NCBI GenBank assembly: GCA_020428005.1
Contig: JAGQNP010000001.1
Coordinates: forward strand, 1 to 48,815
Direction of reading: 5' to 3'
DNA: 48,815 nt
From: Candidatus Saccharimonadota bacterium
Lineage (GTDB): Bacteria; Patescibacteriota; Saccharimonadia; Saccharimonadales; JACQNP01
Program-made: the position numbers and the translations under genes
The notes under the pieces: model-generated
The model's database searches: none
Told to the model about the DNA's origin: nothing
The model's input: the letters and a program-made list of their open reading frames with translations, nothing else
In this document: one piece after another, positions 12,830 to 17,580 of the stretch
Layout of the letters: every line of letters begins with the position of its first letter
Numbering within the stretch: position 1 is the first letter of the stretch

Positions 12830-14515
12830 ATGCATCACAATGTTTTCGCCGAACTAAGTATTATCATAGCCATAGCAACTGGTATTTCACTAGTAATGAG
12901 ACTATTGAGGCAACCATTAATTATTGGTCATATTATTACTGGTATTATTGTTGGACCTTCCGTTTTTCATTTGGTTCAGTCAGCTGAGACAATTGAAGTT
13001 TTTGCCAATATTGGTATCGCCCTTTTGTTATTTATTATTGGTCTTGGACTAAATCCCAAAGTCGTTAAGGAGGTCGGCAAAGTTGCCGGATTGACAGGTA
13101 TTTTGCAAGTAGCGGCTACTGCTGGCTTTGCCTGGGGTGGTGGAATAATCTTAGGGATGTCAAAGACTGAATCAGCGTTCTTCGCAGTAGCTATTGCCTT
13201 CAGCAGTACAATTATTATCCTTAAATTACTTAGCGATAAAAAAGAACAAAACCGTTTATATGGAAAAATTGCCATCGGTATCTTATTAATTCAGGACGTC
13301 CTTGCAACTATTGCATTACTGTTTGTCACATCAAGAAGTTCTGGTGGTTTTTCGGCTGGACAACTGCTCTACCTTGCAATAAAGGGAAGTATTATAGTTA
13401 CTCCACTATTTATCATAGGTAACAAGGTAATTCCTAAACTTCAGAAATTAATTGCTGGCAGTCAGGAATTTCTGTTCCTTTTTGCGATTGGCTGGGGATT
13501 TGGTACCGCAGCCTTGTTTGAACTTGCTGGATTTAGCATTGAGATTGGGGCACTAGTTGCTGGAATATCATTAGCAAGCTTGCCGTTCACACAGGAAATT
13601 AGCGCTCGACTGCGACCACTTCGTGACTTTTTCATCATTGTGTTCTTCATAGCACTGGGTACAAGAATAGGTTTTGATAACTTACAAGCTCTATTGCCAG
13701 CAATAATTATGGGATGTGTTATCACAATTTTCTTTAAACCACTTGTGATATTAACGATAATGGGGTTGTTGAGCTATACAAAAAGAACTAGTTTTAAAAC
13801 AGCAGTATCGATGGCTCAAATTAGTGAATTTTCTTTGGTGTTTGTTATTCTGGGCAATCGTCAAGGACTTGTTTCGGACGATCTGGTAGGAATAACTACA
13901 ATGATAGCCTTAATCACAATTGCAATTTCCGCTTATCTAATAATCTATTCAGACAAATTATTCACAATGTCAGAGGAATTTCTATCAATGTTTGAAAGAC
14001 GTAAGACCCACTTTGAACATGAGTCAAAGCACCATTATGATTTAGTGCTATTTGGTTATCGTAAAGGTGGCCACGAGTTCATTAATGTGTTTAAGTCAAT
14101 GAAGAAACGCTACGTCGTCATTGATTACGATCCAGAGATTATTGATGTATTAGAGAATAGAAAAATTGACTATCTGTATGGTGACGCAATGGATATAGAA
14201 CTACTCGAAGAAGCAGGACTTGATAAGGCAAAGTTAATCGTTTCTACAATTACTGATCACGAAACTAACAAGTTTTTAGTCCATTTACTTAGTGAGATTA
14301 ACCCAGGTGCAGTCATAATTTTGCATGGTGAAAATGTGCACCAAGCTTCAGAATTATATGAAATGGGTGCTAGCTACGTAATTATTCCTCATTATATTGG
14401 TAGTGAGAAAATTGGCACCCTCATAAAGAAAAGTCATCTCAGAAAATCAGAGTTTAAAAAATTCCGCGAAAAGCACCTAGCATATCTGGAAACTCATTTT
14501 TCGCCAGTAGAATAA
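12830..14515 (+). CDS. CPA2-family cation/proton antiporter with TrkA-N domain
   Basis: The 561-residue protein has an N-terminal Na+/H+ exchanger domain of about 12 helices (about 5-385) and a cytosolic Rossmann TrkA-N/RCK domain (about 400-515; LVLFGYRKGGHEFI, then VVIDYDPEIIDVLENR and YLYGDAMD). This is the KefB/YbaL layout, in which NAD(H) or glutathione state gates K+ or Na+ exchange for H+. The GIALLLFIIGLGL and SFSSTIIILKLL helices are typical. There is no Shine-Dalgarno; TTGTAG and TAAAAA boxes lie close before the ATG. The 3' end overlaps the convergent nadD gene by 22 bases. Confidence 0.92.
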   Translation: MHHNVFAELSIIIAIATGISLVMRLLRQPLIIGHIITGIIVGPSVFHLVQSAETIEVFANIGIALLLFIIGLGLNPKVVKEVGKVAGLTGILQVAATAGFAWGGGIILGMSKTESAFFAVAIAFSSTIIILKLLSDKKEQNRLYGKIAIGILLIQDVLATIALLFVTSRSSGGFSAGQLLYLAIKGSIIVTPLFIIGNKVIPKLQKLIAGSQEFLFLFAIGWGFGTAALFELAGFSIEIGALVAGISLASLPFTQEISARLRPLRDFFIIVFFIALGTRIGFDNLQALLPAIIMGCVITIFFKPLVILTIMGLLSYTKRTSFKTAVSMAQISEFSLVFVILGNRQGLVSDDLVGITTMIALITIAISAYLIIYSDKLFTMSEEFLSMFERRKTHFEHESKHHYDLVLFGYRKGGHEFINVFKSMKKRYVVIDYDPEIIDVLENRKIDYLYGDAMDIELLEEAGLDKAKLIVSTITDHETNKFLVHLLSEINPGAVIILHGENVHQASELYEMGASYVIIPHYIGSEKIGTLIKKSHLRKSEFKKFREKHLAYLETHFSPVE

Positions 14516-15099
14516 AGATTGTTTACTCTTATGTACTTCTCGACTGACTCGTGAAGCCCGAGCGGTTTCTTGTTTTGTCTTAAACACTTTTTTAGCTCCG
14601 CAGAGCTAAGTTCATAGCTAGAAGGTTTAAATATATGGGCTTGGAGTTTGGTATTTTTGACTTCCTCGATGGTTGTCATAACTTGTTTTATATGATTTTC
14701 ACTGTATTTTCTTATTCCAATAATAAACTTCATATTAGCTGTTAGCTCTTCAATACTAGGCCAGTCAATAAAGTGCTCAAGTAGATCATCACCCATCAAC
14801 ATGTAAAGCTCTGTACCCTCAAATCTATTCCTAAGTATAGGCATTGTTTCTTGGGGCGTAAATCTAGCCTGCTCAATTGTTATCAGGCCTAGTTTCTCAT
14901 TATCCTTAATTGCTAAGTTAACCATTTTTATACGATGCTCAAAAGCTTTTACACCTTGTTTCCTCCTAGGTCTAGGCTCAGGTAAAAAGAATATTTTATC
15001 TATTCCATATAACTCTGCGGTTTCAGTCGCAAAAGCTATGTGACCATTATGTATTGGATCAAAAGTCCCTGAGTAAATTCCAATTTTCTTCATATTCAT
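14494..15099 (-). CDS. nadD: Nicotinate-nucleotide adenylyltransferase
   Basis: The 201-residue nucleotidyltransferase carries GTFDPIHNGH (with the HxGH motif) near 11-20, FLPEPRPRRK near 39, FTPQETMPILRN, MGDDLLEHFIDWPSI near 105-119 and a YELSSAELKKCLR end motif. NadD joins nicotinate mononucleotide to ATP to give deamido-NAD, the last shared step of NAD synthesis before NadE. Starts at 15099 and 15093 are both possible (MNMKK). The first overlaps the upstream stop by four bases. No other NAD genes are nearby. Confidence 0.92.
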   Translation of the reverse strand: MNMKKIGIYSGTFDPIHNGHIAFATETAELYGIDKIFFLPEPRPRRKQGVKAFEHRIKMVNLAIKDNEKLGLITIEQARFTPQETMPILRNRFEGTELYMLMGDDLLEHFIDWPSIEELTANMKFIIGIRKYSENHIKQVMTTIEEVKNTKLQAHIFKPSSYELSSAELKKCLRQNKKPLGLHESVEKYIRVNNLYSTGEK

Positions 15100-15788
15100 A
15101 TTGCCCTTAGATGCTTTGCTAGCCTTTGTTCATGTCTACTAATATGTTTGGTAGTAGATGCAATAAGTAATATTACTCCGGTAATTTCTAGTCCTTCTTC
15201 GACTATAACTATGCCCAAACTATAAATCGAAAGAGATTTATCAAAAGGAATACTTATATACTCAAATATCACTGCGCCAATAAGAAATACTGAAAATCCT
15301 ATCATTAATGAACGCTTAGTATCACTAGGTACAAAACTCTTTATTATTTTTATGCCAATAATTGCAAAAAATAAGATTAGGGGCAGAACTATCAACCAAG
15401 CGTTTGCTATCAAACTCTGCCTACCCTCACCAAACTGAGCAAGTATATGAAGCCCTTGAAGCAAAAGTTCATGTAGAGCAGCAACTTCGTCAATTGAGGC
15501 CAAAAACCCCGTTATAGCTAACAATAACCAACCAAATGATTGTTTTCCTTTGTGTTGTCTTGATATAAGTAAGCATAGCGTACCAAAGAACAACCATAGT
15601 ATTGAACTAAACCAAGTAGTAACGCTAAGTTCAGCATCTAAGTTGAATCTCCCATGGATATCAGCCAATATTCTGTTTTCAGGAAAACTATTTGCTATCA
15701 ACCATGTAATTGAATGGGTAAATATTACAATAAGCAATACAATTTTTATTAGGTTAAGGATCGATTTCTTACTAGTGATTATTTTCAT
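15096..15788 (-). CDS. Integral membrane protein, six segments, unknown function
   Basis: The 230-residue protein has about six hydrophobic helices (near 12-30, 57-77, 86-105, 127-148, 160-182, 190-213). A conserved-looking acidic stretch after the third helix (ASIDEVAALHELLLQG) and a short Glu pair in the last helix (VIVEEGLEITG) could line a membrane cavity or bind a metal. The tail is basic (RHEQRLAKHLRA). It precedes nadD with an ATGA overlap and follows the 534-residue gene by five bases. It may therefore be under the same cobalamin-riboswitch control, which is inference. I do not recognise the family. Confidence 0.75.
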   Translation of the reverse strand: MKIITSKKSILNLIKIVLLIVIFTHSITWLIANSFPENRILADIHGRFNLDAELSVTTWFSSILWLFFGTLCLLISRQHKGKQSFGWLLLAITGFLASIDEVAALHELLLQGLHILAQFGEGRQSLIANAWLIVLPLILFFAIIGIKIIKSFVPSDTKRSLMIGFSVFLIGAVIFEYISIPFDKSLSIYSLGIVIVEEGLEITGVILLIASTTKHISRHEQRLAKHLRAI

Positions 15789-15793
15789 TTATA

Positions 15794-17398
15794 TTATTGT
15801 ACTGTTACGGGTTCTTTTGTGTTAGAAAAAACTTTAGTTTTTTCAATTTCGTTATCAATAATATTTTGTAGTTCTATCTCTACCTCATCTTCAAAAATTG
15901 AAGCTACGATTTCCTTGAATTTGAGGTCAGTAGACTGAGGTCTAGATTCCTCAATTGAAATTCGTTTTGTTGGGTCTTCTCCTTTATCAAATTTTGCCTG
16001 ACAATTCCTACAAACACTACAAGGACCAACTTCAGTTTTTTTGCCACAAGATTTTATTCGACAAACGCCCTGCTTCCACTTCCAGCTTTCACTGCTATTT
16101 TCATTATCTTCAGTTTGTAATGTAATATTTGAATCTAAAGGCGACTTCTTTCCAAAAATATCCTGACTATTGCCAGAACAACCACCACCTACAGTGATAT
16201 TTTGTCTTGCAATTAATCTGTTATTCTCAGCTTCTAACGTATGGTAGTCCATACCATTTTGGCGAGCAATCTGAATTAGCGCCTCATTTTGCTGTATTTT
16301 ACTTACAACCTGTAGATCCATTTGATTGACTACACTAGGATTGTCTACTACAGACGCTGCCCCACTCCAAAGTGTGTTTTGTTTTGCTCGTTCCAAAACA
16401 GCAGCCAGCTCACGGGACATTCGATAACCTCCGTCCGAATTCTCATGATGTTTAATAACCGCTAGGTCTTCCTCGCTCCAAAATTCTTGCAAAATCCCAA
16501 TAAACCGCTCTGTTTCAAAGTTAGCCTCGTTATTATACAGGCTCTCTGCCAATGATAGTTCAAACTCTAACCACTGATCTGCTTTATCTTCTGCGACACG
16601 CCGCATAGTTTCTTGATCGTCACCGAATAATTTAACTTGCTCAATAACACCCTTCCTAAGTTGGGGATCGGCTATGTAAGGGATAACTGCCGCAACTATA
16701 TCTACTGGTCCATTTTTTAGTCTATCTAGTGGCAACTCTAGTTCCCTATGAACCTTCATAATCGAAAGCGCAGAACCATCATCAGTCACGTCTATTGCTT
16801 TGCCAAAAATATTGTTTTCATCACCGAGCATTGCAACCCAAGCTTCAAAGGGAATATCCCGAACCAAAAGTGACTGCATGATCCTATGGCTAACTTCGCC
16901 CTGATTATCAGTTTCAAACCAGCTAACACGAATTGAATCCTCATCTCCGAGATGCTCACGTCTCGCTTCGGCCAATCTGGCATCATTTCGAGTCATTCTT
17001 GGAGATATAAGCACCTTTGCAACATTTGGCTTCATTGATTCGTCAGAATATCGTGCCTCGTCAACCTCCACATCCACACGCGCCCGAGCTGCTGGAAGTT
17101 TGTGGAATCGATATCCTGACATGGCATTCTGAACAGCGGTTCTGCCAAGCCATTTTGTGGTTTTTAAACCTGTATCTGGGTTATTCTCAACCTCGTGACG
17201 GGTTGTTGTAACTGCAAACGGCATTGCAGCTTCCTGCACCGCGGGAATGAGGTTAGTCTTTATATCTTCAAGATATGCCTGGTCTATAGATCCATCGGGA
17301 TTGCGATGATTTAATATGTGATCAACTTCTGTTAAAACCCGTTCGCTAAACGGTATTACTTGTCTGTCTATTTCTGGTGAGAAGGATGCTTCGTCCAA
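15794..17398 (-). CDS. 534-residue protein of unknown function under a cobalamin-type riboswitch
   Basis: The start is TTG 17398, seven bases after AAGGG; no closer ATG exists. The first 360 residues are soluble, charged and mostly helical (LPAARARVDVEVDEARYSD near 100, EFELSLAESLYNNEAN near 275). A helical or coiled stretch follows (near 365-395), then a Gly-Cys segment (VGGGCSG), then a four- to six-Cys cluster (CRIKSCGKK and CSVCRNCQAKF, near 450-475) that probably binds zinc or another metal. The tail is acidic. There is no signal peptide or membrane helix. A cobalamin riboswitch and terminator lie directly upstream, implying B12-dependent expression, but no B12-binding motif (DxHxxG) is visible. 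The 5' half looks more GC-rich than its neighbours. I do not recognise the family. Confidence 0.8.
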   Translation of the reverse strand: MDEASFSPEIDRQVIPFSERVLTEVDHILNHRNPDGSIDQAYLEDIKTNLIPAVQEAAMPFAVTTTRHEVENNPDTGLKTTKWLGRTAVQNAMSGYRFHKLPAARARVDVEVDEARYSDESMKPNVAKVLISPRMTRNDARLAEARREHLGDEDSIRVSWFETDNQGEVSHRIMQSLLVRDIPFEAWVAMLGDENNIFGKAIDVTDDGSALSIMKVHRELELPLDRLKNGPVDIVAAVIPYIADPQLRKGVIEQVKLFGDDQETMRRVAEDKADQWLEFELSLAESLYNNEANFETERFIGILQEFWSEEDLAVIKHHENSDGGYRMSRELAAVLERAKQNTLWSGAASVVDNPSVVNQMDLQVVSKIQQNEALIQIARQNGMDYHTLEAENNRLIARQNITVGGGCSGNSQDIFGKKSPLDSNITLQTEDNENSSESWKWKQGVCRIKSCGKKTEVGPCSVCRNCQAKFDKGEDPTKRISIEESRPQSTDLKFKEIVASIFEDEVEIELQNIIDNEIEKTKVFSNTKEPVTVQ

Positions 17399-17400
17399 TT

Positions 17401-17427
17401 AAAAACCCTTACTCCGTGAGCGAGGGG
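17401..17427 (-). terminator. Riboswitch expression-platform terminator
   Basis: On the minus strand CCCT..CTC pairs with GAG..AGGG around an ACG loop and is followed directly by TTTTT and, two bases on, the TTG start. The 3' arm also carries the GGAG/AAGGG Shine-Dalgarno, so the hairpin could block either transcription or translation. The GAGCG just upstream (within 17453-17446) can pair with CGCTC in the 5' arm, giving a possible antiterminator. Confidence 0.65.
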
Positions 17428-17580
17428 CCAAAAAATTACTTTTCACCGCTCCTGCTCGGGAGTCTTACAAACCGTATCTGGCTATAACAGTTGCGGCACA
17501 GCTCAGGACTTACACCTGATTCCGGTATTTTTATTGTTAATAGTTAGTATGGTAGCATGCTTTGCCTACGCTACATGTAG
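17428..17580 (-). promoter_or_regulatory. Cobalamin riboswitch aptamer
   Basis: The core is read on the minus strand. GGAATCAGGTGTAAGTCC is followed by the TCAGG/CCTGA stem (17519-17515 with 17507-17503). Next comes AGCTGTGCCGCAACTGT (17503-17487), close to the near-invariant GCUGCCCCCGCAACUGU of RF00174. Then AACTGT can pair with ACGGTT (17475-17470) around GCCA, and finally GAGCAGGAGCGG (within 17458-17446) resembles the B12 box AGCCAGGAGACC. The 5' boundary is uncertain and probably includes the GTAGC/GCTAC hairpin after the stop of the upstream gene. The L5-L13 pseudoknot was not assigned. Established members bind adenosyl-, methyl- or hydroxocobalamin. Confidence 0.82.

Follow-up and report, generated by a model that had tools for sequence, protein, structure and literature searches.

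Among described cobalamin riboswitches, that of metE in P. megaterium represses in response to corrinoid, and when corrinoid is absent the 3′ side of its P13 acts as an antiterminator (PMC10653944). The switch studied here lies on the minus strand of a 48,815-nt stretch of contig JAGQNP010000001.1 from a Saccharimonadota bacterium (hereafter the window). It has the same P13-terminator layout as the metE switch, but its U-run extends right up to the start codon and its hairpin carries a likely Shine-Dalgarno sequence in the 3′ arm, so that translation may be controlled too. With the AdoCbl-II/Cbl-II class (RF01689) it shares the P3-P6 core, a near-invariant GTGCCGC segment, a short peripheral part and a P13/L13 hairpin followed by a terminator; unlike in that class, the target family lies outside the usual B12 synthesis, uptake or isozyme genes.

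Genes for DUF4430/transcobalamin-like and DUF6580 proteins, also of this phylum, lie under a switch of the same model, and their products are likely to act in B12 supply. These products are either exported or membrane-bound and belong to known Pfam families, whereas the window family is soluble, unrelated to them in sequence and found mostly in genomes without DUF4430. PduO-type (PF01923) and BtuR-type (PF02572) cobalamin adenosyltransferases (ATRs) are operon partners of the window family or co-occur with it, and a B12 context is common to both; the family protein, however, does not resemble an adenosyltransferase and occurs alongside ATRs of either type. No relevant report of a cobalamin riboswitch in Saccharibacteria or Patescibacteria was found in the literature, and the phylum holds a large set of such natural switches.

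The riboswitch and its expression platform

The AdoCbl-II aptamer is the sole Rfam match within the window and is located 66 nt upstream of the TTG start codon (Table 1). When 22 switches were aligned, 96.6% of the cells in P3, P4, P5, P6 and P13 were paired and 58 cells carried double changes. The covariation value of 0.443, with double changes in 11 pairs, was matched by 0 of 500 shuffles. P6, for instance, occurs as CGG/CCG or CTG/CAG, and P13 as CTCC/GGAG or CTCT/AGAG. The UGC of L5 can pair with the GCA of L13; both are near-invariant and hence show no visible covariation. A hairpin with a U-run near the start codon was present downstream of the switch at 22 of 27 loci. In the window, the 5′ arm of this hairpin is complementary to the loop and 3′ arm of P13. 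Across loci, these P13 segments match the hairpin downstream in the same genome better than hairpins taken from other genomes (p 0.002). The folding energy of the whole 5′-UTR was not below that of shuffled sequences, so energy alone lends no support.

Because this layout matches that of the repressing metE switch (PMC10653944), the conclusion that the window switch represses, and that the gene would be on when B12 is scarce, is well supported by analogy. With corrinoid bound, L13 would kiss L5, P13 would hold and the terminator would form immediately before the start codon. Without corrinoid, the 3′ arm of P13 would pair with the 5′ arm of the terminator, and the gene would be read and the protein made.

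Table 1. Features of the switch-controlled locus, in window coordinates.
Feature	Position	Strand	Basis
AdoCbl-II (RF01689) aptamer, P3-P6 core	17465..17539	-	Rfam 39.8 bits vs cut-off 36.5, E 4e-6 for the window
P13 hairpin CTCC-CGAGCA-GGAG, putative partner of L5 in a kissing interaction	17449..17462	-	Conserved with variants at nearly all loci read
Terminator-like hairpin, U-run 17401-17405, ends 2 nt before start codon	17406..17427	-	22/27 loci alike
B12-switched family protein, soluble, 534 aa	15794..17398	-	ORF call and homologues
Residues 64-179, beta-beta-alpha-alpha-beta-beta-beta domain, suggested PAS-like topology	16862..17209	-	AF2 pLDDT about 88-98
VGGGCSG, lone invariant Cys407, flexible linker	16172..16192	-	Family alignment and AF2 model
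Five-Cys cluster, residues 446-466, zinc-ribbon-like	16001..16063	-	Cys positions, profile comparison
230-aa membrane protein, no Pfam match, between family gene and nadD	15096..15788	-	ORF call
nadD-like cytidylyltransferase	14494..15099	-	PF01467

A fast-diverging protein family with an invariant Cys pattern

The sequence-only reading had described a soluble 534-residue protein with a TTG start, a VGGGCSG segment and a CxxxxC..CxxCxxC cluster, encoded by a gene with a GC-rich 5′ half, and these points were borne out. The ORF is intact, with its start at 17398 on the minus strand; the cysteines are located at residue 407 (VGGGC407SG) and at residues 446, 451, 460, 463 and 466; and the 5′ half of the ORF has a GC content of 44.4% against a window mean of 37.0%, 0.8% of 800-bp windows being equally high. 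The window protein contains no transmembrane segment (maximum hydropathy 1.09 over 19 residues) and no visible signal peptide, and is therefore not itself a transporter.

Modelling followed by a Foldseek comparison, as that reading had proposed, gave a confident AlphaFold model (pLDDT 85, pTM 0.75) with no significant PDB or viral match. The model begins with two helices at the N-terminus, followed by a sheet domain and a half made of helices; a flexible linker that contains the lone Cys then leads to a small domain formed by the Cys cluster. A weaker model (pLDDT 63) of a distant member, from genome G597, showed the same order of elements. Foldseek returned nothing at E 0.001 or better against PDB for either model, or against viral predictions for the window model; the weak matches were recurrently PAS or GAF domains, of low probability and not significant. 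The topology of the sheet domain suggests a PAS-like arrangement, and we use this term as a topological label because neither model has a significant PDB match.

Searches of Pfam, NCBIfam, PHROGs, PDB sequences and PDB and viral folds found no relative of the window protein, and a Pfam/NCBIfam scan of 27 members gave no credible family, including the known B12-regulated enzymes and transporters. Among the members scanned there was no match to the ATR domains PF01923 and PF02572, which are found on separate genes, or to the DUF4430/transcobalamin-like PF14478, and no B12-binding fold or motif was recognised in the family. The earlier statement that the protein has no known B12-enzyme motif thus held in Pfam, NCBIfam, PHROGs, PDB profile and fold searches. 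Matches of the window protein to DUF4269 of Pfam (E 0.05), PHROG 35712 (E 0.002) and FimY (E 0.1) were below cut-off and absent from its relatives. Those to OAM_alpha, part of a B12 enzyme (E 0.005 in 1 of 27 members), and to the D-ornithine aminomutase S component (E 1.5 in the PDB profile search) were at chance level given the number of tests. No relative was found in viral contigs, and a viral or mobile origin of the family was rejected on this ground.

Divergence within the family is very fast, with identities of ~10-20% between taxonomic families of the order. Profile-profile comparison nevertheless joined the window clade A2 to the A4 set over the N-terminal 200 residues (probability 94.7%, E 6e-8) and to A5 over the zinc-ribbon-like end (99.1%), and A5 to A4 (100%, E 4e-41). 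Near-constant positions are E56, R107, E111, the lone Cys and the cluster Cys. All 46 complete proteins have the lone Cys followed, ~20-60 residues on and near the C-terminus, by a cluster of 4-5 Cys, which from its sequence may plausibly bind metal. The C-termini of members often read -AA, -LAA or -AV (FTLAA in G006, KKAA in G058, GVAA in G040, VLAA in G582) and recall an ssrA-type tail.

Recurrent linkage to the switch and adenosyltransferase operons

Of 61 genomes of the order searched by protein sequence, 13 had a relative, and the RF01689 search gave a match in 23 of the order's genomes. When the DNA around the matches was read, a switch was seen upstream of every protein relative, including six missed by the Rfam search. 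The family gene was downstream of the switch at 42 of the 43 order loci read; the exception was G036, in which the switch with the best RF01689 score precedes an unrelated acidic 559-aa protein with a single Cys. With our own covariance model, R1, 169 of 295 order genomes scored positive for the switch, in a large-scale search whose strict filters mean that absences are not firm. In nearly all order genomes examined, the family is the only B12-controlled gene. The gene had also been called the only clear target of the switch, which stands for the window itself but not for its genome (G000), where a second switch (contig C47, 4002-4130, minus strand; 64.6 bits with R1) lies upstream of a second family member. 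With its nadD-like and KefB-like genes this locus mirrors that of the window; the 5.5-kb contig could be a paralogous locus or a bin contaminant.

Across the phylum, R1 matched in 95 of 380 genomes, and its targets were DUF4430/transcobalamin-like genes, members of the present family or further genes specific to single lineages. A search of the same 380 genomes with a profile of the family gave 10 full-length matches, all 10 with the switch upstream, and an eleventh, weak match (G472) that also follows a switch; no full-length member lacking the switch was found in this search. The family is thus limited, as far as searched, to Patescibacteria and stands under an AdoCbl-II type switch. The survey of homologues suggested at the outset therefore revealed recurrent linkage, both within the order and in other orders.

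In three genomes (G597, G582 and G552) the gene order is riboswitch, PduO-type ATR, family gene, and in two more (G411 and G554) an ATR adjoins the family gene. The ATR genes of G597, G411 and G554, the three that were scanned, matched PF01923 with E values of 1e-52 to 1e-60. No other evidence ties the family to B12 metabolism as firmly as these operons do, and we regard the link between the family and B12 as strong. The proposal of a novel B12-regulated protein, B12-related or metal-handling, gained support from the recurrent linkage, the lack of a known family and the ATR operons.

Other genes accompany the switch elsewhere in the phylum. In other Patescibacteria (L071 and L089 in G522, L072 in G624, and L073, L076, L077, L080, L083 and L085) the same switch precedes DUF4430 (transcobalamin-C-like) genes, genes for DUF6580 membrane proteins, and genes for long, transcobalamin-like barrel proteins of the SQHop-cyclase kind; together these probably constitute a regulon for B12 capture and uptake. 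A VirD4/HerA-like ATPase gene, usually preceded by a small Pro-rich protein, comes after switch-controlled genes at L087 (3095-5473, G597), L109 (G582), L088 (G411), L089 (3712-6075, G522) and L091 (G373). The G597 protein matched PF01935, PF10412 and PF02534, and that of G411 was assigned by sequence.

A proposed role of the family in the B12 economy of episymbionts

Episymbionts of this ultra-small kind are not known to make B12. The window genome encodes one B12-dependent ribonucleotide reductase, NrdJ (600 bits against a cut-off of 400), and a BtuR-type ATR; it has no DUF4430 gene, and DUF4430 was detected in 3 of 59 order genomes. Gene absences here rest on targeted searches: the PduO-type ATR was found in 0 of 295 order genomes, and a BtuC-type permease exceeded the cut-off in 1 of 61. 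With the BtuR type present, the idea that the family replaces the PduO-type ATR in the order was rejected. Strong NrdJ was found in 151 of 169 switch-bearing genomes and in 20 of 126 without the switch (151/20/18/106, Fisher 1e-39, 295 genomes), and the switch was also associated with BtuR (46/5/2/8, p 2e-5), both statistics being correlations among related genomes. The order-wide association with NrdJ is driven largely by family f35, most members of which have neither switch nor NrdJ. Within f35, among the genomes listed as its members, 6 of 6 switch-bearing genomes have strong NrdJ and the switch occurs in 0 of 56 genomes without it (6/2/0/56, p 4e-7).

These data led us to a reading that we hold with about even confidence, namely that the family protein is a cytosolic corrinoid-acquisition or -handling protein that feeds the adenosyltransferase and thereby NrdJ. 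The protein would bind, reduce or deliver salvaged corrinoid by means of its tethered Cys and zinc-ribbon-like domain; the corrinoid would then pass to the ATR (BtuR in the order, PduO-type elsewhere), and AdoCbl to NrdJ. More tentatively, and with the balance of judgement somewhat against it in this full form, the family may be a new class of such proteins, composed of a PAS-like domain, a tethered Cys that possibly ligates or reduces cobalt and a zinc-ribbon-like domain; host-dependent Patescibacteria would make such a protein when B12 runs short, so as to convert salvaged corrinoid to AdoCbl for NrdJ. Several findings count against a corrinoid-handling role: the lack of a recognised B12-binding fold or motif, the lack of a visible signal peptide or transmembrane segment, order neighbours (nadD and uppP) that are not B12 genes, the VirD4/HerA-like ATPase gene that follows the family gene in G597, G411 and G582, the 20 strong-NrdJ genomes in which no switch was detected, and the weight of f35 in the NrdJ association. 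Most of the episymbionts tested carry the B12-dependent reductase that DNA synthesis requires, and almost no BtuC-type importer was found. Since the family is the sole B12-controlled gene in nearly all order genomes examined, it is the obvious candidate for the missing step, and a direct handle on what episymbionts take from their hosts.

The Cys-rich domain and the PAS-like topology could also belong to a regulator or adaptor of B12 starvation, in which a PAS-like sensor and a zinc ribbon bind nucleic acid or protein and slow DNA synthesis or reprogramme the cell once NrdJ is without its cofactor. Many proteins that bind nucleic acids contain zinc ribbons, both models show the topology, PAS and GAF names recur among the weak fold matches, and several members end in a protease-tag-like -AA or -LAA. 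However, the fold matches are not significant, no DNA-binding domain was recognised and the ATR operon is better explained by cofactor handling, which makes a regulator unlikely. Rather less probable still is export, in which an episymbiont lacking B12 would make the protein and send it into its host by way of a type-IV-like machine. The very fast divergence would suit it, as would the VirD4/HerA-like gene downstream of the family gene in three genomes and after other switch-controlled genes in G522 and G373; yet at the order loci read the family gene has no such neighbour, no signal for export was recognised, and adenosyltransferase is an intracellular enzyme.

Cobalamin riboswitches often control B12-independent isozymes, and the co-occurrence of the switch with NrdJ would also fit a protein that bypasses the NrdJ reaction, or some other step that depends on B12, without needing the vitamin. 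We consider this improbable, as neither profile nor fold searches revealed similarity to a ribonucleotide reductase or radical enzyme and no ten-stranded barrel is predicted. Within the order the family gene keeps a constant position between cell-envelope genes and nadD, as might a conserved gene unrelated to B12 that came under the switch by chance or history. Such an origin is very improbable: in other orders switch and gene stay together at unrelated loci and with an ATR, every full-length member found has the switch, and this recurrence at different loci contradicts chance linkage.

In the order the neighbours of the family gene include nadD and uppP, with cell-envelope genes on one side and nadD on the other, and a nadD-like gene lies downstream at most loci; the 230-aa membrane protein of the window is an inconstant neighbour across genomes. 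Upstream of the switch, on the minus strand at L017, L023, L025, L026, L028 and L029, there is a divergently transcribed, variable gene (313-390 aa); the one tested had no Pfam match, and the NHG-D and LSFPRT motifs give these proteins the look of a PlsC-type acyltransferase.
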